Below the pieces are notes generated by a model that was not told the origin of the DNA, made no database searches, and was given only the letters and a program-made list of their open reading frames with translations. The position numbers and the translations under genes were made by a program. From NCBI GenBank assembly GCA_028875855.1, contig JAGWVA010000035.1, positions 1 to 41,137 of the forward strand: a stretch of DNA of 41,137 nucleotides, in the 5' to 3' direction. Source of the stretch: Paracoccaceae bacterium (GTDB taxonomy: Bacteria > Pseudomonadota > Alphaproteobacteria > Rhodobacterales > Rhodobacteraceae). Below, piece after piece: positions 10,033 to 26,982 of the stretch. Position 1 is the first letter of the stretch. Every line of letters begins with the position of its first letter.

Positions 10033-10037
10033 CGGCC

Positions 10038-10814: not shown

Positions 10815-11098
10815 CACATGTGCCCCACTTCGTCGGGGATGTCGAAGAAGGTCGGGTGACGATAGACCTTGCTGTTCGACGGATCGAAAAGCGGGCCCTT
10901 CTCCGAGGGCGACGAGGCGGTGATGTCGTTCGACCGCACCACCCAGATCGAGACGCCTTCGTTCCGCCGCGTATAGACGTCGCGCGCGTTGCGAATGGCC
11001 ATTTCGGCGTCGGGCGCGTGAAGGCTGCCGACATGGCGATGGTTGAGACCGTGCTGGCCGCGGATGAACACTTCCCAGAGGGGCCAATCCTTGGACAT
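10814..11098 (-). CDS. paaB: Phenylacetyl-CoA epoxidase subunit PaaB
   Basis: PaaB (94 residues) is the small subunit linking epoxidase heterodimers. The sequence WPLWEVFIRGQHGLNHRHVG, then HAPDAEMAIRNARDVYTRR and GVSIWVV, is typical. The ATG at 11098 has GGGAGGAAG just upstream; the frame continues farther but is not PaaB-like. It follows the true paaA stop (11155) by 56 bases and overlaps paaC. Confidence 0.93.
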   Translation of the reverse strand: MSKDWPLWEVFIRGQHGLNHRHVGSLHAPDAEMAIRNARDVYTRRNEGVSIWVVRSNDITASSPSEKGPLFDPSNSKVYRHPTFFDIPDEVGHM

Positions 11099-11154
11099 TC
11101 TTGCTTCCTCCCGATGCTCGGACAGGGGGCGGGCGGCAGATCGCCCGCCGGGGA

Positions 11155-12141: not shown

Positions 12142-12156
12142 GCGGGCTCCTCCCCT

Positions 12157-13362
12157 TCAGACACGTTCGATGATGAGTGCGATGCCCTGCCCCACGCCGA
12201 CGCACATGGTGCAAAGCGCATAACGCCCACCGCTGCGGCGAAGCTGATACATCGCGGTCGTCACAAGCCTTGCGCCCGACATGCCGAGCGGATGGCCGAT
12301 CGCGATGGCCCCGCCGTTGGGATTCACATGGGGGGCGTCGTCGGGAATGCCAAGTTCGCGCAGCACGGCAAGCGATTGCGCGGCGAAGGCCTCGTTCAGC
12401 TCGATCACATCCATCTGATCGAGACGCAGTCCCGCGCGGGCCAGCACCCGGCGCACGGCCGGCACGGGCCCCACGCCCATCACGCGCGGCTCGACCCCGG
12501 CGGCGGCCATGGCGACGATGCGGGCCTTCGGCTCGAGCCCCTGCGCCTTGGCTGCGCCCTCCGACAGGACCGCGAGCGCCGCGGCACCGTCGTTGACGCC
12601 CGAGGCATTGCCCGCGGTGACCGACAGTTCCGGCCCGTTCACGCCCTTCAGCCGCGCCAGCGCCTCGGCCGTGGTGCCGGGGCGGGGATGTTCGTCCGTC
12701 GTGACGATCACCGGGTCGCCCTTCTTCTGGGGCAGGCTGACGGGCACGATTTCTTCGGCGAAGACGCCGGCTTCCTGCGCGGCGGCCCAGCGGGCCTGAC
12801 TGCGGGCGGCGAAGGCATCCTGATCCGCGCGGCTGATGCCATAGTCGGCCGCCACGTTGTCGGCCGTCTGCGGCATCGTATCGACGCCGAAAGCGCGCTT
12901 CATCGCCGGGTTCACGAAGCGCCAGCCGATCGTCGTGTCATAAACGGCATTGGTGCGGGAAAAGGCGGTCTCGGCCTTGGGCATCACGAAGGGGGCGCGG
13001 CTCATGCTTTCCACGCCGCCCGCGATGACGAAGTCGCAATCGCCCGCCCGGATCGCCCGAGCGGCCATGCCGACCGCGTCCATGCCCGAGCCGCACAGCC
13101 GGTTGACCGTCGTGCCCGGCACCGCGATGGGCATGCCCGCCAGAAGCGCCGCCATGCGGGCAACGTTGCGGTTGTCCTCGCCCGCCTGATTGGCGCAGCC
13201 ATAGACGAGATCGTCCACCGTGGCCCAATCCACGCCGGGGTTGCGATCCATCAGCGCCTTGAGCGGCAGGGCGGCCAGATCGTCCGCCCGCACCGCGGAC
13301 AGGGCCCCGCCGTAGCGCCCCACCGGGGTCCGGATCGCATCGCAGATGAAGGCTTCGGCCAC
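12157..13362 (-). CDS. paaJ: 3-oxoadipyl-CoA / 3-oxo-5,6-dehydrosuberyl-CoA thiolase
   Basis: This 401-residue thiolase cleaves 3-oxoadipyl-CoA and the dehydrosuberyl intermediate to acetyl-CoA plus shorter acyl-CoAs. The nucleophilic Cys is in [11 protein letters not shown] (Cys90), the active His in [14 protein letters not shown] (His357), and the second Cys in [11 protein letters not shown] (Cys387). The start codon is GTG at 13362 with AAGGGAG upstream. It is the first structural gene of the leftward operon. The same enzyme (PcaF-type) could also serve the benzoate/catechol branch encoded at the right end of the window, since that branch also yields 3-oxoadipyl-CoA. Confidence 0.92.
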
Positions 13363-13404
13363 AGGCTGCTCCCTTGCTGGGCGGACTGGGCGATTCCCGA
13401 ATTC

Positions 13405-13418
13405 ACCGACCGCTCGGT
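13405..13418. promoter_or_regulatory. Second PaaR (TetR)-type operator upstream of paaJ
   Basis: ACCGACCGCTCGGT matches the perfect palindrome at 2157-2170 at 13 of 14 positions. It lies a few bases downstream of the predicted -10 element of the paaJ promoter, over the expected transcription start, where a bound repressor would block initiation. Confidence 0.7.
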
Positions 13419-13421
13419 CAG

Positions 13422-13450
13422 CTTATAGCGCGGAAACATTACACCGTGAA
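13422..13450 (-). promoter_or_regulatory. Sigma-70-type promoter of the paaJABCDE operon
   Basis: On the minus strand, TTCACG (13450-13445) and TATAAG (13427-13422) are spaced by 17 bp. The start would be near 13415. The paaJ GTG lies about 50 bp downstream. Confidence 0.6.
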
Positions 13451-13482
13451 GCGAAATTTAATGTCTGGCGTAATGTTTGGCG
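13434..13482. repeat. Inverted and tandem repeat, candidate PaaX operator
   Basis: AAACATTAC (13434-13442) and GTAATGTTT (13470-13478) are perfect 9-bp inverted repeats 27 bp apart. The right part is also a tandem repeat of TAATGTYTGGCG (13459-13470 and 13471-13482, one mismatch), so the TAATGT half-site appears three times. The set spans the spacer and -35 of the paaJ promoter and sits directly downstream of paaX, making PaaX the likely binder. The binding protein is inferred. Confidence 0.5.
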
Positions 13483-13501
13483 GCGTGATCGGCGCGCGCG
13501 C

Positions 13502-14347
13502 CTAGCCGAGCGCCATGAGACGCGCCCGCGTCTGCGGCGTTGCACCGGGCAAAGGGGCATCCTCGCCTTCCAGCGTGGCGCCGATCTCGGCCTCGGCCGC
13601 GGGCGACAGCGCTCGGTAGAGATCGCGGAAAAGACCGCGCGCCGCTTTTCCCGGCCAGCCCTCGGGCAGCGCCCCTTCCGGCAGGCCCGGATCGCGCAAG
13701 AGCACGCCGCGATAGACATGGACCAGCAGCAGCCGCGCCATCAGCGCCTCGGCCCCGCCGGGCAGATCGCCGGCGGCGACCCGTCCGGCAAGCGGACGGA
13801 AGCGGTCCAGAAGCGCCTGATAGCGCGCGCCCAGCCCGGGAATATCCCAAAAGCCCGCCATCGCGGGCAACGTTGCAACATCATCGGGCGTCGCGGCGCG
13901 GAACACCAGCGCCCCCGTCGGCAAAGGCTCGTCCCGATCCGGGCCGATCCAGACATCGCCCCCCATCCGGGCCAGCCTGTGGCGGCGGGATTCCTCGTCG
14001 GAAAGGCCCGGGGCATGCAGGATCAGCCAGCCCCGCGCGCCCCGGCCGGGCGCATAAAGCTGGTGGGCGGCCTGCAGGAATTCGGCGCGCGCGGCAGGCG
14101 CAAGGCGGTAGAAACTGCGCCGCCCCGCACGCTCCCCCTCGAGCCGCCCGGCCGCGACAAGGCGCGACACGGCGGTCCGCACGAGGTTCTCGCTGATCCC
14201 GATCTGGCCGCACAGACGGATCAGGCTGCCCATCCAGAGCACCTCGCCGCGTGGCATGACCACGTCGCCATAAACCGTCACGATGAAGGCCGCGGCCGTC
14301 AGAGGCAGCCCCTCGATCAGGGGGGCGATGGCGGGATCGGTGCCCAT
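13502..14347 (-). CDS. paaX: PaaX-family transcriptional repressor
   Basis: This 281-residue protein shows the PaaX layout: an N-terminal winged helix (about 15-90; ITVYGD-like FIVTVYGDVVMPRGEVLWM, then GISENLVRTAVSRLVAAGRL and RRSFYRL), a central domain (RGWLILHAP), and a C-terminal helical domain (VHVYRGVLLRDPGLP and LPEGWPG). PaaX senses phenylacetyl-CoA and represses catabolic promoters. The ATG at 14347 follows AAAGGAG. The gene lies upstream of paaJ on the same strand, separated by a 139-bp region holding a promoter and two kinds of repeat. Having PaaX and PaaR together suggests layered control. Confidence 0.9.
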   Translation of the reverse strand: MGTDPAIAPLIEGLPLTAAAFIVTVYGDVVMPRGEVLWMGSLIRLCGQIGISENLVRTAVSRLVAAGRLEGERAGRRSFYRLAPAARAEFLQAAHQLYAPGRGARGWLILHAPGLSDEESRRHRLARMGGDVWIGPDRDEPLPTGALVFRAATPDDVATLPAMAGFWDIPGLGARYQALLDRFRPLAGRVAAGDLPGGAEALMARLLLVHVYRGVLLRDPGLPEGALPEGWPGKAARGLFRDLYRALSPAAEAEIGATLEGEDAPLPGATPQTRARLMALG

Positions 14348-14747: not shown

Positions 14748-16088
14748 ATGGCCATGACGCCCGCACTGGGCATCTCGCAAAGGCGGACGTTGTCCATGAC
14801 GACCATGCTTCGTCAGGCAATCGGGCTGCTGAAATGCAACAACGCCGAACTCCATGACTTTCTGACCAAGGCGACAGAGGCCAATGCCTTTCTGGAACTG
14901 ACCCCGCCGCCGGCTGTGCCCGCTCGCCCGCCCACCGACACGCGGGGCCGGGCGATCTGGCGCAAGGTCTGGAACGGAGCGGGCGACGACGGCATCGACC
15001 TTCTGCGGCGCCCGGCGGCAAGCCTGGTGGAACATATAGCCCAGCAGATCGCGCTGTCCTTTCCGGACCCCGGGGAACGGCACATCGCCTTTGGGTTTCT
15101 GGAAGCGCTCGAACCTTACGGCTGGCTTGGCGACTCCGTGGAAGACATCGCGAGGTCCCGCGGATGTAGCCTGACGGCGGCCCATCGTGTTCTGGATCGC
15201 CTTCAGGATTTCGAGCCCTCCGGGATCTTCGCGCGGTCGCTTGCGGAATGCCTGCGCCTGCAGGCGCGTGACGCGGGCGTGCTCGACGATGGCTTCGCCT
15301 GTCTCCTCGACCATCTTTCGGTGCTTGCCGAGGACGGCCCGGACCGGCTTGGCGAGCTGTGCGGCCTGCCCCCGGAGACCGTCCGACGCCATCTTGCCAC
15401 GTTGCGGAGTTTCGACCCGAAACCGGGCGCGCGGTTTCTTGAGGCCGCAGAGATGCCCATCCGGCCGCCCGATCTGGTCGCAGAGCGCACGCGCGACGGC
15501 TGGAGGGTCGATTTGAACGGCGCCAGCCTGCCCACCGTCGTCTTGCGGGATGACCGGATCAACGACCGGGCGACCCGCGAAAGCGCCGGGGCCGATGCCC
15601 TGACGTTTGCGCGCGATCTCAAGCGCGCCGTGGACCAGCGCAACGCGACGGCCCTGCGTGTCGCCGCCGAGGTGGTGCGGCGGCAATCCGCGTTCCTTTC
15701 CGATCCGCTTGCCCTTCCGGCCCCGCTGTCGCTTCAGGACATAGCCGACGCCATCGGCCTGCACGCCTCGACCGTGAGCCGGATCGTGCAGGGCATGACC
15801 ATCGACACACCGCGCGGTCTTCTTGAACTTCGCCGCTGCTTCGCGCGCGGGCTTCCTGCCGAGGGGGGCCGCGGCGCGCTGTCGGTCGGGGCGCTCAAGC
15901 GCCGCATCCGGGAGATGGTGGAAGCCGAGGACAAGGCCCGGCCCTTGAGCGATGCGGCGCTGTGCGCGGCGTTGCAGGCGGACGGCATCCGGGTCGAGCG
16001 GCGCACGGTCGCCAAATACCGCGAAGAGGCAGGCCTGCCGTCTTCCGTGGCGCGCGCGGCAGCGGCGCGGCAGGGGCCCCGTTCCTGA
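14748..16088 (+). CDS. rpoN: RNA polymerase sigma-54 factor (RpoN paralogue)
   Basis: This 446-residue RpoN begins with the activator-contact region I (QRRTLSMTTMLRQAIGLLKC then NAELHDFL), has a short linker, the core-binding region (about 95-290), a helix-turn-helix (SLQDIADAIGLHASTVSRIV) and, near the C terminus, the RpoN box RRTVAKYREE (about 418-427). The ATG at 14748 has AAAGGACGAGG upstream; the longer frame back to 14283 would run into paaX. The acidic region II is short. It is followed by a sigma-54 promoter, transporter genes and a sigma-54 activator, which suggests a dedicated sigma factor. Rhodobacter relatives are known to carry several rpoN copies. Confidence 0.92.
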   Translation: MAMTPALGISQRRTLSMTTMLRQAIGLLKCNNAELHDFLTKATEANAFLELTPPPAVPARPPTDTRGRAIWRKVWNGAGDDGIDLLRRPAASLVEHIAQQIALSFPDPGERHIAFGFLEALEPYGWLGDSVEDIARSRGCSLTAAHRVLDRLQDFEPSGIFARSLAECLRLQARDAGVLDDGFACLLDHLSVLAEDGPDRLGELCGLPPETVRRHLATLRSFDPKPGARFLEAAEMPIRPPDLVAERTRDGWRVDLNGASLPTVVLRDDRINDRATRESAGADALTFARDLKRAVDQRNATALRVAAEVVRRQSAFLSDPLALPAPLSLQDIADAIGLHASTVSRIVQGMTIDTPRGLLELRRCFARGLPAEGGRGALSVGALKRRIREMVEAEDKARPLSDAALCAALQADGIRVERRTVAKYREEAGLPSSVARAAAARQGPRS

Positions 16089-16109
16089 CGCGTGCGTTTT
16101 CCCCGTCGG

Positions 16110-16124
16110 GCGTGATATTCACGC
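16110..16124. promoter_or_regulatory. Candidate upstream activator site of the ABC-operon sigma-54 promoter
   Basis: GCGTGATATTCACGC has 6-bp inverted arms (GCGTGA/TCACGC) around TAT, starting 110 bp upstream of the -24 element at 16220, the usual distance for a sigma-54 activator. A related GCGTGA site lies 109 bp upstream of the second sigma-54 promoter. Confidence 0.5.
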
Positions 16125-16219
16125 GACAGGGGGCCAGCTTCTGGCGGGACTTTGCAGACACCCCCGCTGTCGCCCTGAATTGGTTGAGTTTTTTCGCCAG
16201 TGCCTGTGTGTTCGATTGT

Positions 16220-16235
16220 TGGCGTCCAATTTGCA
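16220..16235 (+). promoter_or_regulatory. Sigma-54 (-24/-12) promoter of the ABC transporter operon
   Basis: TGGCGTCCAATTTGCA matches the TGGCAC-N5-TTGCA form: the GG and GC dinucleotides have exact spacing and the -12 part TTGCA is complete. Transcription should start near 16246, about 73 bases before the first ATG. Confidence 0.75.
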
Positions 16236-16318
16236 TGTATGCAGATGACGGCGCCTCATCCCAGAGCCGACGTTCAAGAGCGAAAACGCCTTCAAGTCCA
16301 AACACGGGAGACTGATCC

Positions 16319-17833
16319 ATGAGAAAGCTCACCAGCGCCGGTCTGGCCGCGCTGATCGCCTTCGGCGCGACAAGCCAGACCGCTGCCGCGAAGGACCTGG
16401 TGATCGGCTTCAGCGCGGATGCCGCCACGCTTGACCCGGCCAACCATCGCGACACGAACACGGAAACGATCATCCGCGAGATGTATGACGGCATCCTGAC
16501 CCGCGATCCCGCGATGCATGTCGTCCCCCAGCTTGCCGAGTCCTACAAGCAGATCTCGCCCACGGTTTACGAGTTCAAGATCCGCAAGGGCGTCAAGTTC
16601 CACGACAGCGGCACGATGACCGCCGAGGACGTGAAGTTCACGCTCGACCGGATCTGGCAGAAGGGCGGGCTTGGCGATGGCCAGACCAGTCCGCGCCAAA
16701 GCCTGTTGGGGCCGATCAAGTCGGTGGACGTGGTGAACGGCGACACGGTGCGCGTGACGCTGTCCGCGCCGTGGTCGCTCTTGCCCGCCATGCTTCCCTT
16801 CCAGGAGATCGTGTCGAAGGCCTTCGTGGACAAGGTCGGCACGGCCGGCATGGCCACGCAGGAAGACGGCACCGGTCCGTTCCAGCTTGTTCAGTGGAAC
16901 AAGGGGGACTCGGTCGTGATGAAGCGCTTTGACGCCTACTGGGGCGGCAAGGCCTGCGTGGATCGCGTGATCTTCAAGACGATCCCGGAATCCTCGTCGC
17001 GCGTTGCGGCACTTCTGGCCGGGGACGCGCAGATCATCGACCATCTGCCGCCCTATGCCGTGTCGCAGGTGAACGCGAGCGGCAATGCCAAGGCGGTCTT
17101 CGTGAACGGCACGCGCAGCTATTTCATCGCCATGAACCTGACCGAAAAGCCGTTCACCGACATCCGGGTGCGCGAGGCGATCGCCCATGCCATCGACAAG
17201 CCGCTGGTCATCAACAAGATCCTTGGCGGCCATGCGGTGGCGATCAACGGCATTCTCAGCCCCGATGCCTTCGGCAAGAACAAGGCGCTGAAGGGCATGG
17301 CCTACGACCCCGCACTGTCGCGCAAGCTGTTGAAGGAGGCGGGGTATCCCGACGGCATCAAGATCACGATGGATGTGACCGGCCCCGACAAGGACACCGC
17401 GGAAGCCGTCGCCTCGCTGATGGCGAAGGGGGGCATCACGACCAAGGTTCAGGTCGGCGAAAGCGCGATGCTCGGGTCCAAGTGGCGCACGATGGGCAAG
17501 CCCAAGACCGGCGACATGTTCTTCTCGTCCTGGGGCAACGGCTCGCTCGACCCGCAGGGCATCTTCATGCCGACGCATCACACCGACGGCCGCGGCAATG
17601 CCTCGGGCTATTCGAACCCCAAGGTGGACAAGCTGCTGGACGACGCGGCCGTCGAGGTCGATCGTGCCAAGCGCGCCGCGATGTATGAAGAGGCCGAGGC
17701 GATCGCGGCCAAGGATGTCGCCTACATCTACCTGTGGGTGCCTCAGGACATCTATGGCGTGTCCAAGCGCCTGACCGGCTGGCAGCCAAGCCCGGATGGC
17801 CGGCTGAACCTCGTCAAGACCTGCCTGAACTGA
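16319..17833 (+). CDS. ABC transporter periplasmic substrate-binding protein (family 5, peptide/nickel/glutathione type)
   Basis: This 504-residue secreted solute-binding protein starts with a signal peptide (MRKLTSAGLAALIAFGATS, cut after about residue 24). Family-5 features follow: DLVIGFSADAATLDPANHRD, the signature near FKIRKGVKFHDSGTMTAEDV, and GTGPFQLVQW. It binds a peptide-like or other amide-rich ligand in the periplasm for the permease encoded next. The ATG is at 16319. It is the first gene after a sigma-54 promoter, in an operon with two permeases, two ATPases, a C45-type hydrolase and a sigma-54 activator. The ligand cannot be told from sequence; the hydrolase suggests an N-acyl or amide compound. 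Confidence 0.88.
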   Translation: MRKLTSAGLAALIAFGATSQTAAAKDLVIGFSADAATLDPANHRDTNTETIIREMYDGILTRDPAMHVVPQLAESYKQISPTVYEFKIRKGVKFHDSGTMTAEDVKFTLDRIWQKGGLGDGQTSPRQSLLGPIKSVDVVNGDTVRVTLSAPWSLLPAMLPFQEIVSKAFVDKVGTAGMATQEDGTGPFQLVQWNKGDSVVMKRFDAYWGGKACVDRVIFKTIPESSSRVAALLAGDAQIIDHLPPYAVSQVNASGNAKAVFVNGTRSYFIAMNLTEKPFTDIRVREAIAHAIDKPLVINKILGGHAVAINGILSPDAFGKNKALKGMAYDPALSRKLLKEAGYPDGIKITMDVTGPDKDTAEAVASLMAKGGITTKVQVGESAMLGSKWRTMGKPKTGDMFFSSWGNGSLDPQGIFMPTHHTDGRGNASGYSNPKVDKLLDDAAVEVDRAKRAAMYEEAEAIAAKDVAYIYLWVPQDIYGVSKRLTGWQPSPDGRLNLVKTCLN

Positions 17834-17857
17834 GCCCGCTGGACCGGAGGCACCAGG

Positions 17858-18865
17858 ATGTCCCTCACCAAACTCGTGGAACGTCTGGTGCAACTCGTGC
17901 CGGTGCTTCTGGGGGTCAGCGTCATCGTCTTTCTGATGATGGCAATGACCCCCGGCGATCCCGTCCAGATCATGATCGGCGACCAGAACGTGACCGCGGC
18001 ACAGGAAGCCCAGCTGCGTCACGATCTGGGGCTGGATCGCCCCGCCTACGAGCGTCTGGCCCTCTTCATCGGCCATGCGGCGACGGGGCATTTCGGCGAA
18101 AGCTTCTACTACAAACGCCCGGTCGCGCAGGTGATCGCCGAACGCCTGCCGGCCACCATCGAACTGAGCGTGGTGGCGCTTCTGATCGCGCTCATGACGT
18201 CGATCCCGCTTGGCGTTCTGGCCGCCGTCAAGAAGAACTCCGTGCTGGACAGACTGGCGACGGTCGGATCGCTGCTGGGGGTCTCGTTGCCGGGCTTCTG
18301 GTTCGGCATCCTGCTGCTGATGCTGTTCGCGGTGCAGCTGCACATCCTTCCCGTCTCCGGCCGCATGGGGTTTGCGACCAGCATAAGACCCATCACGGGC
18401 TTCCTGCTGATCGACACGCTGCTGCGCGGCGATCCCGCGGCCTTCGTTGATGCGCTCAAACACATCCTGCTGCCCGCCATCACGCTTGGCCTGCCGATGA
18501 CGGCCGTCCTGATGCGCGTCACGCGCACCTCGATGCTGGAGGTGCTGCGCCAGGATTACATCACCTTTGCCGAGGCAAAGGGCCTGTCGCGCACCCGCGT
18601 CCTTGTCCGCCATGCGCTGAAGAACGCACTGATCCCGACCGTCTCGGTCGCCGCGATCGAGACCGGCTCCCTGCTTGGCGGCAACATGATCGTCGAGACC
18701 GTCTTCGGCTGGCCCGGGCTGGGGCGGCTGGTGGTGGACAGCATCTTCGTGCGCGACTACCCGCTGGTCCAGACGGCGGTGCTGCTCTACGCGGTCACCT
18801 ACGTGCTGCTGAACTTCGTCGCCGACATCCTCTACACCTTCCTGAACCCGCGGGTGAAACTATGA
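17858..18865 (+). CDS. ABC transporter permease, DppB/OppB type
   Basis: This 335-residue inner-membrane permease has a first transmembrane segment near residues 10-30 (LVPVLLGVSVIVFLMMAMTP) and five more after a periplasmic loop. The cytoplasmic EAA-like loop reads FAEAKGLSRTRVLVRHALKN. It pairs with the next gene (DppC type) to form the channel. An acceptable GGAGGCACCAGG precedes the ATG at 17858, and it overlaps the next gene by four bases. Confidence 0.88.
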   Translation: MSLTKLVERLVQLVPVLLGVSVIVFLMMAMTPGDPVQIMIGDQNVTAAQEAQLRHDLGLDRPAYERLALFIGHAATGHFGESFYYKRPVAQVIAERLPATIELSVVALLIALMTSIPLGVLAAVKKNSVLDRLATVGSLLGVSLPGFWFGILLLMLFAVQLHILPVSGRMGFATSIRPITGFLLIDTLLRGDPAAFVDALKHILLPAITLGLPMTAVLMRVTRTSMLEVLRQDYITFAEAKGLSRTRVLVRHALKNALIPTVSVAAIETGSLLGGNMIVETVFGWPGLGRLVVDSIFVRDYPLVQTAVLLYAVTYVLLNFVADILYTFLNPRVKL

Positions 18866-19755
18866 GCGACGCCGACGTGACCCGCCCGGCCCCGTCCCAG
18901 TCCCTTCTGGTGCGCAACCTCGTCGTCTTCGCCGAGAACCGGCTGGCCGCCGGCAGCGCCGTCATCGTGCTGGTCTTCGTGGCGCTCGCGCTTTTCGCGC
19001 CGCTCATCGCACCTCAGGACCCGAACGCGACGGACCTCTTCAGCCGCCTCCAACCGCCGGCTTGGCAGGCGGGCGGCGACTGGGGCCATGTGCTGGGCTG
19101 CGACGCCCTTGGCCGGGACATCCTGTCGCGCATCATCTACGGCTCTCGGGTGTCGATGCTGGTGGGAGCGACGGTCGTCTTCATCGCGACAAGCATCGGC
19201 ATTCTGGCGGGGCTTGCCGCAGGCTATCTGGGGGGCTGGGTCGATACGATCATCTCGCGCACCGTCGATATCCTGCTGGGCTTTCCCTACCTGATCTTCG
19301 CGATCGGCCTGATGGCGATGATGGGCGCGGGGCTGGGCAATATCATTCTGGCCCTGGTTTACAAGGAATGGGTCATCCCCTGCCGCGTTGTCCGGGCCGA
19401 GACGCTGGCCACGCGGGAACAGGAATATGTCGAGGCCGCGCGGGCACTCGGCGCCTCGAACCGGCACATCATGCTCCGGGAAATCCTGCCCAACTTCCTG
19501 TCGCCCGTCATCGTCGTATCGACCATCCGCATGGCGAACGTCATCATCCTCGAGGCGAGCCTCAGCTTTCTTGGCCTTGGCGTGCAGCCGCCGACCGCGT
19601 CCTGGGGCGCGATGGTGGCGGACGGGCGCGCCTTCATCATGCAGGCGTGGTGGGTGAGCACCTTCCCGGGCCTTGCGATCCTGCTGCTGGTGCTGGCGCT
19701 GAACGTGGCAAGCCAGGGCCTGCGCGACGCTTTCGACCCGAGGTTCCACGAATGA
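18862..19755 (+). CDS. ABC transporter permease, DppC/OppC type
   Basis: This is a 297-residue partner permease with a cytoplasmic N terminus, a first membrane segment near 32-52 (AAGSAVIVLVFVALALFAPL), the DppC hallmark GCDALGRDILSRIIYGSR, and the EAA-like loop EAARALGASNRHIMLREILP. It overlaps both neighbours by ATGA junctions, so subunits are probably made in fixed ratio. Length fits the family. Confidence 0.88.
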   Translation: MSDADVTRPAPSQSLLVRNLVVFAENRLAAGSAVIVLVFVALALFAPLIAPQDPNATDLFSRLQPPAWQAGGDWGHVLGCDALGRDILSRIIYGSRVSMLVGATVVFIATSIGILAGLAAGYLGGWVDTIISRTVDILLGFPYLIFAIGLMAMMGAGLGNIILALVYKEWVIPCRVVRAETLATREQEYVEAARALGASNRHIMLREILPNFLSPVIVVSTIRMANVIILEASLSFLGLGVQPPTASWGAMVADGRAFIMQAWWVSTFPGLAILLLVLALNVASQGLRDAFDPRFHE

Positions 19756-20768
19756 CCGAACCGCTTCCCGGATGCCTGCTCGAGGTTGCGGGCCTGCGCA
19801 CCGCCTTTCACACCCGCGCGGGCACCGTGCGCGCCGTCGATGGCGTCGATGTCATGGTCCGGCGCGGCGAATGCATCGGCGTGGTGGGGGAATCCGGGTC
19901 GGGCAAGAGCGTCACCTTCGCCTCGGTCATGGGCCTGATCCGGTCGCCGGGGCGGATCGAGGCGGGCACCATCCGCTTCGACGGGCAGGACCTGCGCGCG
20001 CTTTCGCCCCGCCAGATGCGCGCCATCCGTGGCCGGGACATCGCGATGACGATGCAGGATGCGCTGACCGCGCTCAATCCTGCGCTCACCGTGGGCGAGC
20101 AGATCGCGGAGGTGCTGGAAGCGCATGACGAGGACCTCCCCCGTCGCGGCCCGGCCCGGCGGCGGGCGATCACCGACCGCGCGGTCGAGATGCTGCGCCT
20201 TGTCGGCATCCCCTCCCCCGCCGAAAGACTGCGGCAATACCCGCACGAATTCTCGGGCGGGATGCGGCAGCGCATGATGATCGCGATTGCGCTGTCCTCG
20301 CGGCCGAAGCTCTTGATCGCGGATGAACCCACCACCGCGCTGGACGTGACGATCCAGGCGCAGGTTCTGGAACTGATCGCCGACATCCGCGCACGTCTGG
20401 GCATGAGCGTGGTTCTGATCACCCATGACCTTGCCGTCGTGGCCGAGCATTGCGACCGTGTGATGGTCATGTATGCCGGCGAGGTCGTGGAAGAGGGGCC
20501 GACGCAGGCCGTCATCGGCGATCCGCGCCATCCCTACACGAAGGGGCTGCTGGCTTCGATCCCGCGCCCCGCCTTGCGCGGCGAGAAGATCCACCCGATC
20601 AAGGGCCAGGTCCCCGACCTCATCAATCTGCCCGATCAGTGCCGCTTCCAGTCGCGCTGTCCCGAGGCGGGGCCGGACTGCCTCGCCCGCATTCACATGC
20701 ATCCTGCCGGACCCGGTCGCAGGGCCCGATGCATTCGACGTCTCGATGGGGGACAGGCCGATGAGTGA
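19752..20768 (+). CDS. ABC transporter ATP-binding protein, DppD/OppD type
   Basis: This 338-residue ATPase has Walker A GESGSGKS (about 43-50), signature FSGGMRQRM, Walker B LLIADEPTTALD, and a C-terminal oligopeptide-transporter extension with Cys residues (CRFQSRCPEAGPDC) that in this family can bind an iron-sulfur cluster. I chose the ATG at 19752, which overlaps the DppC-type stop; the open frame extending to 19062 is not ATPase-like. It overlaps the next ATPase by eight bases. Confidence 0.9.
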   Translation: MTEPLPGCLLEVAGLRTAFHTRAGTVRAVDGVDVMVRRGECIGVVGESGSGKSVTFASVMGLIRSPGRIEAGTIRFDGQDLRALSPRQMRAIRGRDIAMTMQDALTALNPALTVGEQIAEVLEAHDEDLPRRGPARRRAITDRAVEMLRLVGIPSPAERLRQYPHEFSGGMRQRMMIAIALSSRPKLLIADEPTTALDVTIQAQVLELIADIRARLGMSVVLITHDLAVVAEHCDRVMVMYAGEVVEEGPTQAVIGDPRHPYTKGLLASIPRPALRGEKIHPIKGQVPDLINLPDQCRFQSRCPEAGPDCLARIHMHPAGPGRRARCIRRLDGGQADE

Positions 20769-21777
20769 ACCGCTGCTGTCCGTCTCCGGTCTGACCAAGG
20801 TCTATCGCGGCACGCCCGGCATCGTCGGCCGCCTGATGGGGCGGCCGACGCTTGAGGTGAAGGCCGTGAGCGATGTCAGCCTCTCCGTCGAGCGGGGCGA
20901 GATCCTTGGCCTGATCGGCGAAAGCGGCTGCGGGAAATCGACGCTTGGCCGGACGATCCTGCGGCTGCACGAGCCGACCGAAGGCGCCATCCGTTTCGAC
21001 GGCATCGACGTGGCGGCCCTCCCCCCGCGCGAGATGAAGGCGATGCGGCGGCGGATGCAGATCATCTTTCAGGACCCCTATGCCTCGCTCAATCCCCGGC
21101 GCACCGTCGCTGACATCGTGGGCCTGCCCTTGCAGCTTCACGGTCTGGCCAGGAGCAAGGCCGAGACGCGCGACAGCGTTGCCGCGATCATCGAGAAGGT
21201 GGGCCTCAAGACGGCGCATCTGGACAGGTATCCCCACCAGTTCTCGGGCGGACAGCGCCAGCGGATCGGCATCGCCCGCGCGCTAGTCAGCCGGCCCGAG
21301 TTCATCGTCTGCGACGAACCCGTCTCGGCGCTCGACGTGTCGATACAGGCCCAGATCATCGAGCTTCTGTCCGACCTCAAGCGCGACATGGGGCTGACCT
21401 ATCTCTTCATCTCGCACGACATCTCGGTGATCGGCTATCTCAGCGACCGCGTGGCCGTGATGTATCTGGGAGAAGTGGTCGAGATCGGACCGGTTCAAGC
21501 GATCCTCGAACGGCCGCGGCATCCCTATACGCAAACGCTGATGTCGGCCGTGCCCAGGGTCGAGGCCGAGGGCGGGCGGAAGCGTGTCCGGCTGATGGGC
21601 GATCTGCCGTCGCCGCTCGATCCGCCCGGCGGGTGCAAGTTTCACACGCGCTGTCCGCTGGCGACCGATCTCTGCCGCAGCCGCGCGCCGGTGTCGCAAA
21701 GCGTGGGCATCGGCCATCATGCCTCCTGCCACCGGTTGAACGAGAGCTTCAACCTGCTGGAAGGGGAAACGGCATGA
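20761..21777 (+). CDS. ABC transporter ATP-binding protein, DppF/OppF type
   Basis: The second ATPase (338 residues) has Walker A GESGCGKS, signature FSGGQRQRIGIA, Walker B FIVCDEPVSALD and a C-terminal Cys pattern CKFHTRCPLATDLC. GGGGGACAGG precedes the ATG at 20761. With the preceding four genes it makes a complete importer. Its stop overlaps the C45-type hydrolase start, which ties the hydrolase to the imported compound. Confidence 0.9.
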   Translation: MSEPLLSVSGLTKVYRGTPGIVGRLMGRPTLEVKAVSDVSLSVERGEILGLIGESGCGKSTLGRTILRLHEPTEGAIRFDGIDVAALPPREMKAMRRRMQIIFQDPYASLNPRRTVADIVGLPLQLHGLARSKAETRDSVAAIIEKVGLKTAHLDRYPHQFSGGQRQRIGIARALVSRPEFIVCDEPVSALDVSIQAQIIELLSDLKRDMGLTYLFISHDISVIGYLSDRVAVMYLGEVVEIGPVQAILERPRHPYTQTLMSAVPRVEAEGGRKRVRLMGDLPSPLDPPGGCKFHTRCPLATDLCRSRAPVSQSVGIGHHASCHRLNESFNLLEGETA

Positions 21778-22865
21778 CCGAGTGGTCCCCGACAGAGGGC
21801 GACAGCGTCGCGCTTGAAGGGACGCCCTTCCAGCGCGGGCTGGGGCAGGCCGCTGCCGGCCGCGCGGCCTGCGACGCGGTGCGTCAGGTCACCGCCGACC
21901 GGCTGGCGGCGGCCGAGGCTCAGGGACTGCTTGGCCCCCGCGCGCGGCAATTCCTCGCGGCGCAGATGGACTTCGCCCGCGCGGTCTGCCAGCCGGAACT
22001 GGCGGAACTGACCGGCATCGCCGAAGGCTTCGGCCTTCCCGTGGACCGGTTGTTCGCGGCGCTTCACCTTGGCATTCTGCACGATCTCTCGGCCGTGCCG
22101 GACGGCGTTTCGGACGGATGCAGCGCGTGGGCGGTCGATCGCGGCAGGGACGGCCCGATGGTTGTCAAGAACCGCGACTTTTCCGGCGCACATTCCGGCA
22201 TCCAGCGCATCTTCCGGCACGAGGGCCCGGATCTGGCGCGGGGCCCGATGTTCTGCCTTGGCAGTCTGGGCAGTCCCGGCGCCTATTCCAGCGGGATGAA
22301 TTCCGCGGGCCTTGCCATCGTGGACACGCAGATCGGCACGCGCCGGCATCGGCCCGGCTGGCTGCGGTATTTCCTGATGACCCGGCTGCTGTCGCAGTTC
22401 GCATCGGTCGCGGAGGCCGTCCGGTTCATCCGGGCACAGCAGCACGTGGGCGGCGGCACGCTGGTGATGGCGGATGCTCGGGGCGAGGTCGCCGCGGTCG
22501 AATTGGGCGCCGCAGAGGTCGCGGTCGAGATCGCGCCGCGGGTCTGTCGCACGAACCACTTCACCCTGACCGTGACAGCGCCGGAGACCCTGACCGATCC
22601 CGCCAGCACGATCGAGGATACATCGCACGACCGGCGCGCGTTCCTCGACCGGACCATTCCCGGTGCCGACTGGTCGGCGGAGGCCGCATCCCGCCTCATG
22701 GCCACGCATCGCGGGGATGGGCCGCAGGCGGGGCCGCTCTGCCAGCATCCGGATGCGGGGGGCAGCCGCACGATATCCAGCGTCGTTTATTGCTGCGCGT
22801 CGCGGCTCATGTATGCTTGCCTCGACAACCCCTGCACCGGTCCGTGGCACGTCCTGCGCCTCTAG
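21774..22865 (+). CDS. C45-family Ntn hydrolase / acyl-CoA:6-APA acyltransferase-like protein
   Basis: This 363-residue protein resembles the C45 peptidase family of N-terminal-nucleophile hydrolases, whose members break or form amide bonds after self-cleaving a Gly-Cys bond. The expected nucleophile is Cys116 in SDGCSAWAV, followed by GPMVVKNRDFS and SSGMNSAGLAIVDTQ; a later NHF motif (CRTNHFT) fits the acyltransferase fold. No signal peptide is visible, so it should act in the cytoplasm on the imported substrate. ATG at 21774 overlaps the ATPase stop, with GGAAGGGGAAA upstream. Peptide, N-acyl amino acid or lactam-like substrates are all possible. Confidence 0.75.
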   Translation: MTEWSPTEGDSVALEGTPFQRGLGQAAAGRAACDAVRQVTADRLAAAEAQGLLGPRARQFLAAQMDFARAVCQPELAELTGIAEGFGLPVDRLFAALHLGILHDLSAVPDGVSDGCSAWAVDRGRDGPMVVKNRDFSGAHSGIQRIFRHEGPDLARGPMFCLGSLGSPGAYSSGMNSAGLAIVDTQIGTRRHRPGWLRYFLMTRLLSQFASVAEAVRFIRAQQHVGGGTLVMADARGEVAAVELGAAEVAVEIAPRVCRTNHFTLTVTAPETLTDPASTIEDTSHDRRAFLDRTIPGADWSAEAASRLMATHRGDGPQAGPLCQHPDAGGSRTISSVVYCCASRLMYACLDNPCTGPWHVLRL

Positions 22866-22879
22866 GCCGGGGGGGCGGC

Positions 22880-23887
22880 ATGGACAGGGCAATGGCGCAA
22901 TACAACGATGGCCTGATCGGTCAGCACGAGAGCATCCGCACCCTGCGCAGCCTGATCGAGCGCGTGGCGAAAAGCCCCGTGCGGACGGTCCTGATCTACG
23001 GCGAAACCGGCACCGGCAAGGGCCTTGTGGCGCGGATGCTGCATCGCGGATCGTCCCGCGCGGCGGGCGAATTCGCCGAGATCAACTGCGCCGCGATCCC
23101 GGCGGGCCTGATGGAATCCGAACTCTTCGGCCATGAAAAGGGCGCTTTCACCGGCGCGGTCGAACGCAAGATCGGCCTGATCGAGGCCGCCGACAAGGGC
23201 ACCGTGTTCCTCGACGAGATCCGCGAGATGGAACTGACGTTGCAGGCGAAGTTGCTGACGCTGCTCGATACGCACCAGTTCCGCCGTGTCGGGGGCGTGC
23301 GCGCGACCTCTGTCGATGTGCGCTACATCGCGGCCACCAACAAGGTGCTCTTGTCCGAGGTGAAGGCCGGGCATTTTCGTGAAGACCTTTACTACCGGCT
23401 TCAGGTCGTGGCCCTCAACATCGCGCCGCTGCGCGACCGCGGCGAGGATGTCCTGATCCTCGCGCGGCATTTCATCGACAAGTTCAATCGCCAGTACGAC
23501 CGCCGCATCAAGGGGCTGAGCGACGAGGTCGCGCAGATCTTCCTGAAATATCCATGGCCCGGCAACGTGCGGGAGCTCGAGAACCTGCTGGAGCGGATCT
23601 TCATTCTGGAAGACGACGACATCGTGCTGCCCTCGCATCTTCCCGACCGTATCCTGCGGGCCGTACGCGCGGGCACATCGACCGCGACAGGCGGCGGACA
23701 TGCCGACCCCGCCCAGCTGCCCGCCGAGGCTGGCTTTCACCCCGCGACCGCCGCCTTTCAGAAGGCGTTGATCCAGCGGGCGCTGAACGAGGCGAACAAC
23801 AACTTGCAGCAGGCGGCGGCGGCGCTGAAGATCAGCCGCCATGCCCTGCGACACCAGATGCTCAAGCTCGGCATCCTCGACGCGTGA
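22880..23887 (+). CDS. Sigma-54-dependent transcriptional activator without sensor domain
   Basis: This 335-residue enhancer-binding protein consists of an AAA+ domain almost from residue 12, with Walker A GETGTGKG (41-48), the sigma-54 contact loop GAFTGA (88-93), Walker B VFLDEI (109-114), YPWPGNVRELENLLER, and a C-terminal Fis-like helix-turn-helix (NNLQQAAAALKISRHALRHQ). There is no receiver, GAF or PAS domain, as in PspF. The ATG at 22880 is 14 bases after the hydrolase stop, so it is the last gene of the operon it probably activates. A second sigma-54 promoter starts about 100 bases after its stop. How its activity is controlled is not visible. Confidence 0.9.
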   Translation: MDRAMAQYNDGLIGQHESIRTLRSLIERVAKSPVRTVLIYGETGTGKGLVARMLHRGSSRAAGEFAEINCAAIPAGLMESELFGHEKGAFTGAVERKIGLIEAADKGTVFLDEIREMELTLQAKLLTLLDTHQFRRVGGVRATSVDVRYIAATNKVLLSEVKAGHFREDLYYRLQVVALNIAPLRDRGEDVLILARHFIDKFNRQYDRRIKGLSDEVAQIFLKYPWPGNVRELENLLERIFILEDDDIVLPSHLPDRILRAVRAGTSTATGGGHADPAQLPAEAGFHPATAAFQKALIQRALNEANNNLQQAAAALKISRHALRHQMLKLGILDA

Positions 23888-23917
23888 AAATCCCCTCGTG
23901 ACGCGCGCAATACGCGC
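23882..23917. promoter_or_regulatory. Candidate upstream activator sites of the atuA-like sigma-54 promoter
   Basis: GCGTGAAAATC (23882-23892) overlaps the activator's own stop codon and lies 109 bp before the -24 element. GCGCG-CAATA-CGCGC (23903-23917) is an inverted repeat two helical turns closer. Each agrees with the palindrome at 16110-16124 at 10 of 15 positions. Confidence 0.4.
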
Positions 23918-23990
23918 AAGCGCCTGCCCACACCACGTGCATGCTGCATTTTCTTTAGCTTTCCCAATGACCTGAGAATTCCTCCGGCAT

Positions 23991-24006
23991 TGGCATGCGA
24001 CGTGCA
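23991..24006 (+). promoter_or_regulatory. Sigma-54 (-24/-12) promoter of the AtuA-family/DUF4387 operon
   Basis: TGGCATGCGACGTGCA has exact GG-to-GC spacing, with TGGCA at -24 and TGCA at -12. Transcription should start near 24017, about 23 bases before the ATG at 24040. Confidence 0.75.
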
Positions 24007-24039
24007 TGTAATGTGGTGACGGAATTGCTGGAGAGCCCC

Positions 24040-25419
24040 ATGAAGTCGCTGAAGATCATCTGCCCGAACGGCCACCTGGGTTTTGCCCCGCTGAAGGTGG
24101 AAAGCTTCCGGCTCGGCGTGGCGGCCAAACCCGACTACATCGCCGCCGACTCCGGCAGCGACGACATCGGACCCGTGCCGCTCGGGACGGACACCTGCGC
24201 GAGCCCCGCGGCCTGGCAGGAGCACGATTTGGAACACATGCTTCTGGCCGCGCGGGAACTGGACGTGCCGATGCTGATCGGTTCGGCCGGCGACACCGGC
24301 ACCAATTCGCGCGTGGACATGTATGTCGAGATGATCCGCAAGATCGCCCGGCGCCACGATCTGCCGCCCTTCCGCATCGGCTGGTTCTATTCGGAAGTGG
24401 ACCGCGAACTGGTCCGCACCCAGATCCGGTCCGGGACCGCGGTCGCGGGCCTCGACGCGCGCCCCGACCTGACCGAAGACGAGCTTGACGCGACGACGCG
24501 CGTTGTCGCCATGGCCGGCGTCCATCCTTTCGTGGAACTGCTGAAACAGGAGTGCGACGTCATCATCGGCGGCCGCAGTTCCGACAGCGCGATCTTCGCA
24601 GCCCCCGCGCTTTACCACGGCTTCCCCGAGGCGCAGGCCTATTACCTTGGCAAGGTGCTGGAATGCGCCTCGTTCTGTGCCGAACCCTATGGCGCCAAGG
24701 AAACCGTGCTGGGCAAGATCACCGAAGACTGGGTGGAAGTCACGGCCATGCATCCCGGCCAACGCTGCACCGTCGCTTCGGTTGCCGGTCACGCGATGTA
24801 TGAGCGCTCCAACCCCTACCACGAATACGTTGCGGGCGGGATGCTGGACATGACCGACTGCCATTATCGGCAAGTGTCGGAAAAGACGACGCGGGTCACC
24901 GGAATGCGCTTCGTTCCGGCAACCGAGCTTCGGGTGAAGCTGGAAGGCTCGGGCAAGGTCGGCGAGCGGTTCGTGGGCATGGCGGGCATCCGCGATCCCT
25001 ACACCATCGCGAACGTGGACGAGGTCATCGCCTGGAGCCGGGCCCAGGTGATCGAACGCTTCGGGCCCGACGGCTGGGAGCTGCACTACAACGTCTTCGG
25101 GCGGGACGGCATCATGGGCCCGCTCGAGCCGCTGCGCGACAAGCCGGGGCATGAGCTTCTGGTCGTGGTGCAGGGCCTCGCCCCGACCCGCGAGATGGCC
25201 GAGGAAGTCACCATGACGGGCACCCGGCAGTTGTTCTATGCCCGCCTGCCTGATGTGAAGGGAACCGCAGGCGGCGTGTCTTTCGTGCTCGACGAGGTGC
25301 TTCCGGCCAGCCCGGCGCATCGCTGGACGCTGAACCACACGATGCGGATCGACGACCCGCTGTCGCTTTTCCCGACGCAAACCGCGACCATCGGCGAAAC
25401 CGCCACTTCGGACGCCTGA
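24040..25419 (+). CDS. AtuA-family (DUF1446) acyclic terpene utilization-like protein
   Basis: This 459-residue protein has the AtuA/DUF1446 pattern: an N-terminal GFAPLKVESF then IAADSGSDDIGPVPLG, a glycine-rich loop LIGSAGDTGTNS, and IIGGRSSDSAIFAAPAL. AtuA is named from acyclic terpene catabolism in Pseudomonas, but family members occur with many acyl-type pathways and the reaction is not settled. GGAGAG precedes the ATG at 24040; an upstream in-frame ATG at 23995 lies inside the promoter and is rejected. It is the first gene after its own sigma-54 promoter and is paired with DUF4387. Confidence 0.85.
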   Translation: MKSLKIICPNGHLGFAPLKVESFRLGVAAKPDYIAADSGSDDIGPVPLGTDTCASPAAWQEHDLEHMLLAARELDVPMLIGSAGDTGTNSRVDMYVEMIRKIARRHDLPPFRIGWFYSEVDRELVRTQIRSGTAVAGLDARPDLTEDELDATTRVVAMAGVHPFVELLKQECDVIIGGRSSDSAIFAAPALYHGFPEAQAYYLGKVLECASFCAEPYGAKETVLGKITEDWVEVTAMHPGQRCTVASVAGHAMYERSNPYHEYVAGGMLDMTDCHYRQVSEKTTRVTGMRFVPATELRVKLEGSGKVGERFVGMAGIRDPYTIANVDEVIAWSRAQVIERFGPDGWELHYNVFGRDGIMGPLEPLRDKPGHELLVVVQGLAPTREMAEEVTMTGTRQLFYARLPDVKGTAGGVSFVLDEVLPASPAHRWTLNHTMRIDDPLSLFPTQTATIGETATSDA

Positions 25420-25432
25420 GACAGGACACGCC

Positions 25433-25759
25433 ATGACCACGATGAAACTGAGCGACCTTGCCAAGACGATCCGAAGCAAGAATGCCGGCACCGACAAGAT
25501 CACCTTCGACGTCATCTTCCGCGAGGCAGCGGCCTATGAACAGGTCAAGCGCTCGCGTGCGCTGACACGGCAGAGCGTCAGCCAACTTCTGAAGATCAAT
25601 CCGAACCGGATCACCGACTTTGTCGAATACGACCCGGCCTATGCGATCAAGTTCACGATCCTGCGCGATCGCCCCAGCGGCAGCGCGGGGGACGGCGACA
25701 TCTTCGGGGCGCAGCAATACGCCCCGCTTCTGGATATCGAGATCGCGCTGGACAGCTAG
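25433..25759 (+). CDS. DUF4387 family protein
   Basis: This 108-residue protein matches DUF4387 by pattern: KLSDLAKTIRSKNAGTDKIT, FDVIFREAAAYEQVK and YDPAYAIKFTILRD. The family usually follows an AtuA-type gene, as here, 13 bases after it, and the two are thought to act together; no reaction is established. The ATG at 25442 is an alternative start. It ends seven bases before a strong hairpin terminator. Confidence 0.82.
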   Translation: MTTMKLSDLAKTIRSKNAGTDKITFDVIFREAAAYEQVKRSRALTRQSVSQLLKINPNRITDFVEYDPAYAIKFTILRDRPSGSAGDGDIFGAQQYAPLLDIEIALDS

Positions 25760-25766
25760 CGCGCCG

Positions 25767-25787
25767 GGCGCCCCTTGGAGGGGCGCC
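25767..25787. terminator. Bidirectional terminator
   Basis: GGCGCCCCT (25767-25775) and AGGGGCGCC (25779-25787) form a perfect 9-bp stem with a three-base loop, followed by TTCCGTTT. It separates the DUF4387 gene from the converging hydrolase gene ending at 25795. Confidence 0.75.
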
Positions 25788-25794
25788 TTCCGTT

Positions 25795-26982
25795 TCAGGG
25801 CTCGGACAGGAAATCGATGGCCCGCGCCATGAGATCCTGCCATGCCGGGTCCTGGCGGAGCGGAATGTGGTTGCGGCTTTCCAGCAGGTGGAACTCTGCC
25901 CCCGGGATACGGGCCGCGATCAATCGCGACTGTTCCAGCGGCTGGACGGCATCGTCGCGTCCGTGCAGCACAAGCGTCGGGCAGCGGACCGCCGCGAGCA
26001 TCGCGGTGACATCGAACCCGTCGATGGCTCGGCGCAGGTTGACCGCGGCCTCCGGCGTGGCCGAGGCAAGTTGCAGCCGCACCAGATCCTCGATCTGCGC
26101 ATGGTCGGCGTCGGGGGCGTATAGCGCTGCAAAGGCCGTCGCAAAGGCAACCGAACGCCGCCCCCACCCCTCGCGGATGAGGGTCAGGATCGCATCGGCG
26201 CGGTCGCGATCCTCCGGCGTCTGACGCAGCGCGCGCCCCTGCGCGTAGCCTCCGTAAAGCACGAGGCGGGTGATCCTGTCGGGATGGCGCGCGGCAAAGG
26301 CAATCGACACCGGAACGCCTTGCGAGGCCGCAAGGACCGGGAACCGGTCCAGCCCCGCGGCATCCGCGACAGCCTCGAGATCCTGCACGAGCGTATCGAG
26401 CGTCACGGGACCGTTGGCCTCGGCGGAAAGTCCGGTCGTGCGCTGGTCGTAGCGCGTCACCGAGAAATGACGGCCAAGGTGATCGAGGAACGGATGCCAG
26501 ATCGGACTTTGCCAGTCGTATTCGAGATGCGTGAGAAAATGCCCCGCGCGCAGCAAGGGCGGCCCGGAACCGGTCGTCGTCCATGCCAGCGCCGTTCCAT
26601 CGCGCGAACGGGCAAAGCGGATGCGCTGCGGCGCTGGTTTCGGCAGCGGCGATGAGGCGGGCGCCCGTTCCGTCGTCACCTCGGCCATCAGCCGGAAGCC
26701 CCGGCGGGGGACCGTCGCCAGAACCGCCTGCGCCTTGCCCGTGTCGCCAAGCGCGCGGCGCAGCGCGTTGATGCGCGACGAGATTGCCGCCTCGGAGACG
26801 ATGCGGTTCTGCCAGATCTCGGCGACAATCTGGTCGCGGGTCACCAGCGCGCCGGGCGCGCGCAGGAACAGGCAGAGCAGGTCGAACACCTGCGGCTCCA
26901 GCGGCAGGAGGCGGCCGGATCGGCGAAATTCATGCCGGTCTTCGTCGAGTTCGCAATCTGCAAAGCGATGGATCATGCCCAC
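25795..26982 (-). CDS. Winged-helix (OmpR/CadC-type) DNA-binding domain fused to alpha/beta hydrolase
   Basis: This 395-residue protein combines an N-terminal winged helix (about 1-103: LPLEPQVFDLLCLFLRAPG, then VTRDQIVAEIWQNRIVSEAA and VPRRGFRLMAEV), with a Pro-rich linker, and a C-terminal alpha/beta hydrolase (about 120-395). The hydrolase keeps a nucleophile Ser220 in the elbow AASQGVP, an acid in HGRDDAV and a His in SRNHIPLR, so it may be active or use the fold to bind a ligand. No membrane segment is seen. It is divergent from a small gene at 27124. The fold order suggests a regulator that senses or turns over an ester- or lactone-like compound. Confidence 0.82.
   Translation of the reverse strand: MGMIHRFADCELDEDRHEFRRSGRLLPLEPQVFDLLCLFLRAPGALVTRDQIVAEIWQNRIVSEAAISSRINALRRALGDTGKAQAVLATVPRRGFRLMAEVTTERAPASSPLPKPAPQRIRFARSRDGTALAWTTTGSGPPLLRAGHFLTHLEYDWQSPIWHPFLDHLGRHFSVTRYDQRTTGLSAEANGPVTLDTLVQDLEAVADAAGLDRFPVLAASQGVPVSIAFAARHPDRITRLVLYGGYAQGRALRQTPEDRDRADAILTLIREGWGRRSVAFATAFAALYAPDADHAQIEDLVRLQLASATPEAAVNLRRAIDGFDVTAMLAAVRCPTLVLHGRDDAVQPLEQSRLIAARIPGAEFHLLESRNHIPLRQDPAWQDLMARAIDFLSEP

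Follow-up and report, generated by a model that had tools for sequence, protein, structure and literature searches.

Why does a second gene for the sigma factor sigma-54 (rpoN) stand directly ahead of an ATP-binding cassette (ABC) importer and a set of enzyme genes, and does its product serve these genes alone? The question is raised by positions 14748-25759 of contig JAGWVA010000035.1 from a Paracoccaceae bacterium (assembly GCA_028875855.1), of which the first 41,137 nucleotides (hereafter the window) were analysed. A preliminary description, made from the letters alone, had proposed that this segment is a sigma-54 module with its own RpoN, activator and two promoters, which imports an amide-type compound, cleaves it and passes the product to an AtuA/DUF4387 enzyme. 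Its ten genes and their domains were confirmed by an open-reading-frame check and profile searches, all frames being open at the positions given and matching the expected families. We consider it probable that the cassette is a self-contained sigma-54 regulon, in which one sigma factor and one activator would serve two promoters for the import, hydrolysis and splitting of a hydroxy-acid conjugate.

The cassette rpoN (14748-16088, + strand) encodes a complete RpoN, with activator-interacting, core-binding and DNA-binding domains in a single protein of 446 amino acids (PF00309, PF04963 and PF04552; TIGR02395 with 316 bits, cut-off 277.35). The genome contains two PF04552 genes, this one and a second on another contig (G000:C70), which is flanked by LptB-like, HPF-like and PtsN-like genes (identities read by eye in the translations). 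The order lptB-rpoN-hpf-ptsN is the usual housekeeping rpoN locus; the window gene lies outside such a setting, and because the C70 copy occupies it, the window RpoN is, judged by gene context, accessory within its own genome. In a tree of 95 RpoNs, the 33 encoded by cassettes (that of the window and 32 others) fell on one side of a single branch with an SH-like approximate likelihood ratio (SH-aLRT) of 93, the other 62 being 60 of the 101 non-cassette PF04552 matches and the RpoNs of two loci described below (L165 and L220). A more careful tree retained the group (support 74/35; 72% of bootstraps), and a single origin of the cassette RpoNs is likely from these topologies. The same branch separates them from the four RpoNs of a Cereibacter sphaeroides-like genome (G051) with SH-aLRT 93, but with 74/35 in the careful tree; by eye, one of these four adjoins flagellar genes and one nif-type genes.

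The linkage is conserved among relatives. Of the 295 genomes of the family, 14 contain C45 homologues (E <= 1e-30), the window's own included, and the ten-gene cassette is whole and in the same order in nine of the 13 relatives; in a tenth (G129) it is split over two contigs, with rpoN, the binding-protein gene and oppB on one and oppF onwards on the other. Genome neighbourhoods thus bear out the predicted co-occurrence of RpoN, activator, C45 and AtuA/DUF4387 genes. The related cassettes of three genomes (G183, G040 and G014) showed no adjacent rpoN, and that of G014 showed no activator either. A related cluster in G040 (L041, G040:C17) carries two AtuA/DUF4387 pairs and two C45 genes. In a wider scan, from which 80 named loci (the best 80 of 115) were kept, rpoN lies in cassette direction in 31, is absent from 31 (all with at least 2.3 kb of sequence ahead of the first cassette gene) and is undecided in 18, where the upstream sequence is too short. 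The rpoN-bearing loci comprise 28 from Rhodobacterales, two from unplaced Alphaproteobacteria and one from a metagenome-assembled genome (MAG) of Hoeflea, whose cassette nests among Pseudotabrizicola and is possibly a binning error. Loci without rpoN belong mainly to Hyphomicrobiales (13), Rhodospirillales (6), Acetobacterales (4) and Burkholderiales (2), and most cassettes outside Rhodobacterales have no rpoN of their own; two loci labelled Rhodobacterales also lack it, one nesting in Stappia (L181) and one with a degenerate activator motif (L226).

The cassette copy is often the only sigma-54 gene of its host. A PF04552 search of the 14 C45-bearing genomes found no other in seven of the 11 that carry rpoN in the cassette (the window's genome counted among the 11), and these seven genomes are 95-100% complete. 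The same holds for four of 14 named rpoN-bearing genomes in a second set, which includes MAGs; with Thioclava marina (G254) and Frigidibacter albus (G205), present in both sets as judged by identical coordinates, counted once, 11 of 23 genomes yielded the cassette rpoN and no further sigma-54 gene. The search found no sigma-54 gene in G183 and G014, and one, away from the cassette, in G040. The hosts of rpoN-less cassettes have exactly one sigma-54 gene in all 18 genomes tested, and 17 of these genes lie away from the cassette. The exception is Paenochrobactrum gallinarii (L165), whose sole sigma-54 gene (1129-2448, - strand) is divergent from the importer gene, which begins at 2851; the gap of about 400 bases therefore leaves no room for lptB upstream of rpoN. 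Its RpoN groups with other RpoNs outside the cassette group, and this arrangement may represent a second, independent joining of a sigma-54 gene to the cassette. At another locus (L220), rpoN (9816-11333, - strand) with an LptB-like gene upstream (11699-12328, - strand), in the usual housekeeping order, is found roughly 3.5 kb downstream of a cassette. The preliminary description had set dedication of the cassette RpoN against the case that its clade is simply the sole housekeeping RpoN. Half of that case is found, in that the copy is the sole one in 11 of 23 genomes; yet it remains bound to the cassette there, and dedication is therefore favoured over a housekeeping role.

The activator gene (22880-23887, + strand; PF00158, PF25601 and PF02954, HTH_8) encodes a protein with Walker A, a GAFTGA loop and a Fis-type helix-turn-helix, the marks of a sigma-54 enhancer-binding protein. 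The first ATG is at 22880 and the AAA+ match begins near the N-terminus; Pfam profiles found no sensor domain ahead of it, and an N-terminal sensor is optional among such proteins. Every PF00158 match with E < 1e-8 in the seven single-sigma-54 genomes was read at the GAFTGA position (matches weaker than this fall mostly outside the census). In six of the seven, an intact motif was found in the cassette activator alone, and the remaining PF00158 proteins lack the loop or read GAFPGA and similar; a protein of G168 (L120) with RRG-FTGQ was counted as not intact. With the conserved linkage, this gives the cassette RpoN what marks a specialised paralogue, its own cognate enhancer-binding protein with targets. 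Strong PF00158 matches at six loci (L102, L106, L107, L113, L138 and L139) have GAFPGA or GAMPGA in place of GAFTGA, which suggests activators that left sigma-54.

The two -24/-12 promoters of the preliminary description sit where they had been placed, P1 (TGGCGTCCAATTTGCATGTA; 16220-16239, + strand) before the importer and P2 (TGGCATGCGACGTGCATGTA; 23991-24010, + strand) before atuA. The generic pattern TGGC-N8-TGCA is uninformative by itself (245 sites in the genome versus 120 for a reversed control). The fuller pattern TGGC-N8-TGCATGTA has only two exact sites in the genome, P1 and P2; with one mismatch allowed, 10 sites were found versus eight for the reversed control, and only the exact form stands out. 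Conservation across relatives, the stronger evidence, was used for this reason. Sites were scored over the 12 bases of TGGCACG-N4-TTGCA, with GG and GC 10 bases apart and a threshold of at least 9; the window promoters score 9/12 and 10/12. Such a site precedes the importer in all 32 and atuA in all 31 rpoN-bearing loci (window included); among the other loci, contig-cut ones included, it is present at 32 of 36 importers and 37 of 46 atuA genes. Across the 80 named loci, 72 have an intact GAFTGA and at least one promoter, one has the motif without a promoter (L234), two have a promoter without an intact activator seen (L223, where the sequence stops right behind the C45 gene, and L230) and five have neither. 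In G183, where no sigma-54 was found, the cassette activator reads GSFAGA and the best promoter site scores 8/12, with none of at least 9; these natural losses of sigma factor, motif and promoter fit a dedicated regulon. In G040, where the one sigma-54 gene is unlinked, GAFTGA is retained and a site scoring 11 of 12 precedes the first atuA. A sigma-54 promoter of rpoN itself was also considered and finds no support, as only two of 30 upstream regions contain a site scoring at least 9, versus 10.5% by chance.

The base at -11 separates the loci further. With sites scored without using this base and the window included, the importer promoter has A at -11 in 32 of 32 loci with rpoN versus 2 of 27 without, and the atuA promoter in 31 of 31 versus 13 of 22; the undecided loci, excluded from the comparison, have A in three of five importer and 14 of 16 atuA promoters. 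A Fisher test on these counts takes no account of kinship, and its value is not read as a probability. When five cassette proteins were joined into one tree (79 rows), the presence of rpoN needed two changes, which we read as one gain and one loss. The loss would lie in L170, a MAG labelled Saccharospirillum, which stands inside the rpoN-bearing clade without rpoN and whose two promoters both carry T at -11. The difference at -11 is suggestive of RpoNs that are not interchangeable.

A further element, absent from the preliminary description, is a perfect 15-bp dyad (GCGTGATATTCACGC; 16110-16124; 6+6, pattern GCGTGA-N3-TCACGC), detected by a 15-bp search, whereas a search for palindromes of even length does not catch it. 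With up to two mismatches, the dyad occurs upstream of the importer in 28 of 32 and of atuA in 20 of 31 rpoN-bearing loci (0.9 and 0.2 expected from resampled sequence), and in loci without rpoN at 24 of 36 and 22 of 46, respectively (0.8 expected each). In the window it is present at the importer region only, the best candidate before atuA having three mismatches. Genome-wide, the dyad has three exact matches and 51 sites when one mismatch is tolerated, so that it is not specific by itself; its distribution makes it the likely binding site of the activator, and it is proposed as an upstream activating sequence.

The importer comprises a family-5 solute-binding protein (SBP_bac_5; 16319-17833; PF00496, E 2.5e-82), the best solved relatives of which are 5u4o and 1uqw (YliB), OppB-type (17858-18865; PF00528, PF19300) and OppC-type (18862-19755; PF00528, PF12911) permeases, and OppD-type (19752-20768) and OppF-type (20761-21777; start codon checked) ATPases, both with PF00005 and PF08352 (oligo_HPY), all on the + strand. 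It is followed by an autoproteolytic N-terminal nucleophile hydrolase of the C45 type (21774-22865, + strand; PF03417; AAT/C45_proenzyme), which matches NF040521 with 138.3 bits (cut-off 85). Cys116 of its DGC motif, which we take to be the nucleophile after the autoproteolysis point, is invariant in 14 of 14 aligned sequences; the solved relatives are remote (3gvz, E 1.4e-11; 2x1d, E 2.9e-9). The genes from the binding protein to the activator are overlapping or at most 25 nt apart and, because of this, probably form a single operon. Beyond P2 follow the AtuA-family protein (24040-25419, + strand; PF07287) and the DUF4387 protein (25433-25759, + strand; PF14330). Residues 2-442 and 5-104, respectively, align with chains A and B of PDB 9erq (E 1.4e-71 and 8.3e-24), so that both subunits are homologous lengthwise; the molecule names of 9erq and 9evf include citramalate lyase subunits A and B. 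By this alignment the pair is homologous to the solved pair deposited as the citramalate lyase CmlAB. In the open-licence literature DUF4387 was found in no paper, and no paper on the CmlAB pair was found among the matches listed.

From these data a scheme can be drawn. The cassette rpoN would be expressed from a promoter of another type than sigma-54, and the activator would bind the dyad and remodel the cassette RpoN at both promoters. P1 would drive importer, hydrolase and the gene of the activator itself, therefore with positive feedback, and P2 would drive AtuA/DUF4387. The importer might take in an acylated hydroxy-acid or amide conjugate, from which the C45 hydrolase would free the acid, and AtuA/DUF4387 might split this acid in a reaction of citramalate-lyase type (to pyruvate and acetate, if citramalate is the acid). 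In evolution, the cassette would have depended at first on the housekeeping sigma-54 of its host; an ancestor within Rhodobacterales would then have added rpoN, and -11 of the promoter would have become A. The regulatory half of the preliminary description, an RpoN dedicated to the module, is well supported by the linkage, the shared activator, the two promoters, the second RpoN at a housekeeping locus and the relatives with a sole sigma-54. The metabolic half stands in part, through the homology of AtuA/DUF4387 to the solved pair.

How much weight this scheme can bear depends on several observations that count against it. Some single-sigma-54 genomes are incomplete drafts or MAGs, and a second rpoN may thus have gone unseen in them. 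The single origin of the cassette RpoNs is weakly backed in the careful tree (74/35; 72% of bootstraps), and because of kinship the -11 statistics are worth about two evolutionary events rather than 59 sites. As 13 of 22 atuA promoters without rpoN also have A, this base is not unique to a private sigma-54. One genome (G074) has a single sigma-54 yet two GAFTGA activators, the second with PAS-like regions by eye. The window genome itself contains a second activator with GSFTGA besides the second RpoN, which makes cross-talk possible. That activator (L149, G000:C35) has, by eye, a receiver-like domain and adjoins a receiver/Hpt-like protein, and similar activators occur in G205, G199 and G040, all with a non-cassette RpoN. 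Homology to CmlAB, finally, does not establish the same substrate.

Part of this evidence would also suit a linked RpoN that is a general accessory sigma-54 for many promoters of the genome, merely parked beside one target operon, as the two sigma-54 genes of the window genome and the additional GAFTGA activator of G074, which has only the cassette RpoN, might suggest. We regard this as unlikely: no other intact GAFTGA activator was found in six of the seven single-sigma-54 genomes examined, the exact extended promoter pattern is confined to the two cassette sites of the window genome, and the linkage has lasted although RpoN is only 36-47% identical between the window and the nine complete relatives, compared with 78-84% for AtuA. 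The rapid evolution of RpoN could instead mean that the linked copy is redundant or decaying and that the housekeeping RpoN drives the cassette, much as cassettes outside Rhodobacterales mostly make do with one unlinked RpoN. However, the frame of the linked copy is open and all three of its domains are kept, 11 of 23 genomes yielded no second RpoN, and the importer -11 base tracks the linked rpoN, being T where rpoN was lost, which makes such redundancy very improbable. It is quite possible, on the other hand, that the regulation is as proposed and the metabolism different, with AtuA/DUF4387 acting on another hydroxy acid, C45 being an acyltransferase or acting on an unrelated amide, and the steps not consecutive. 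The remote homology of C45 to its solved members, the moderate similarity to CmlAB and the separation of P2 from P1, by which the two enzyme steps can be set apart, agree with this; both enzymes and the importer, however, are kept together from Rhodobacterales to Burkholderiales, and the same type of dyad lies upstream of both operons. Within the self-contained regulon that we prefer, it is quite possible that the cassette is a portable, largely orthogonal circuit, which took on its own rpoN, shifted -11 to A, became independent of the host sigma-54 and could then persist in genomes without any other sigma-54, its one sigma factor and one activator serving the two promoters and no other targets.

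The surroundings contribute little to this picture. A GC-rich hairpin past the last gene (25766-25788, + strand) is a candidate terminator, without a clear T-run and folding no better than shuffled sequences (z-score -1.08), and a convergent gene beyond it (25795-26982, - strand) resembles, by eye, a winged-helix domain fused to an alpha/beta hydrolase. Upstream (9508-14347, - strand) lie phenylacetate-catabolism-like genes and a PaaX-like regulator, also named by eye from translations. A tie between these and the cassette was rejected, as the 14 largest clusters of neighbouring genes (4 to 16 loci each, within 6 kb) hold no gene of the window. Another region, in G254 (L281; G254:C1:1976000-1995500), has a second RpoN (12579-13832) beside PotC-like permease, aldehyde dehydrogenase and glutamine-amidotransferase genes, with a GAFTGA activator (in L103) and a PotD-like binding protein about 5-7 kb away (all by eye). 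This arrangement resembles a further, independent cassette with a private sigma-54, which may serve polyamines.

Sigma-54 is usually regarded as acting globally, through many different activators. In the present case some 11 kb seem to contain a complete sigma-54 regulon, which recurs in different genera. Its natural gains, losses and promoter changes can serve as ready experiments on sigma-54 specificity, for both base -11 and the pairing of RpoN and activator, and the cassette offers a testable role, the catabolism of hydroxy-acid conjugates, for AtuA/DUF4387 and C45 proteins beside family-5 importers. No paper describing the cassette was found in the open-licence literature. Dedicated sigma-54 paralogues as such are already known in Rhodobacterales, those of C. 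sphaeroides being established, and Rhodobacter capsulatus has a nif-linked single RpoN; the new part is the packed catabolic cassette.

The AtuA-family and DUF4387 proteins resemble CmlAB (PDB 9erq, 9evf) as a two-subunit enzyme by sequence homology alone, and the C45 protein resembles its family and the isopenicillin N acyltransferase 2x1d in its profile match and the invariant Cys of the DGC motif, although the homology to 2x1d is remote. In regulation, the RpoN/MptR/Mpt system of the mannose phosphotransferase system in Enterococcus faecalis is similar in that sigma-54 and a cognate activator run carbon uptake (PMC8262876); it differs in its transporter, and its abstract does not mention a private sigma-54 copy within the target cassette. 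R. capsulatus has a single genome-wide RpoN encoded beside its targets (nifU2-rpoN), which is activated by NifA and AnfA only, NtrC using RpoD (PMC6925177). That system serves nitrogen fixation with two activators, and its rpoN is also under a NifA-RpoN promoter, whereas no evident sigma-54 promoter precedes the cassette rpoN (2 of 30 regions). A further parallel is Cereibacter (Rhodobacter) sphaeroides, where the pairs RpoN1/NifA, RpoN2/FleQ and RpoN3/AprX are described, GAFTGA or GSFTGA is taken as the mark of a true activator, and the -11 promoter base contributes to discrimination between RpoN1 and RpoN2 (PMC11999139). This bears out the earlier statement that relatives of Rhodobacter have several specialised rpoN copies, each studied paralogue being bound to its own activator and gene set. 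In contrast to the pairs described in that text, sigma factor, activator and all recognised targets are here united in one conserved cassette for import and catabolism, and in 11 of 23 genomes no sigma-54 was found outside this cassette.

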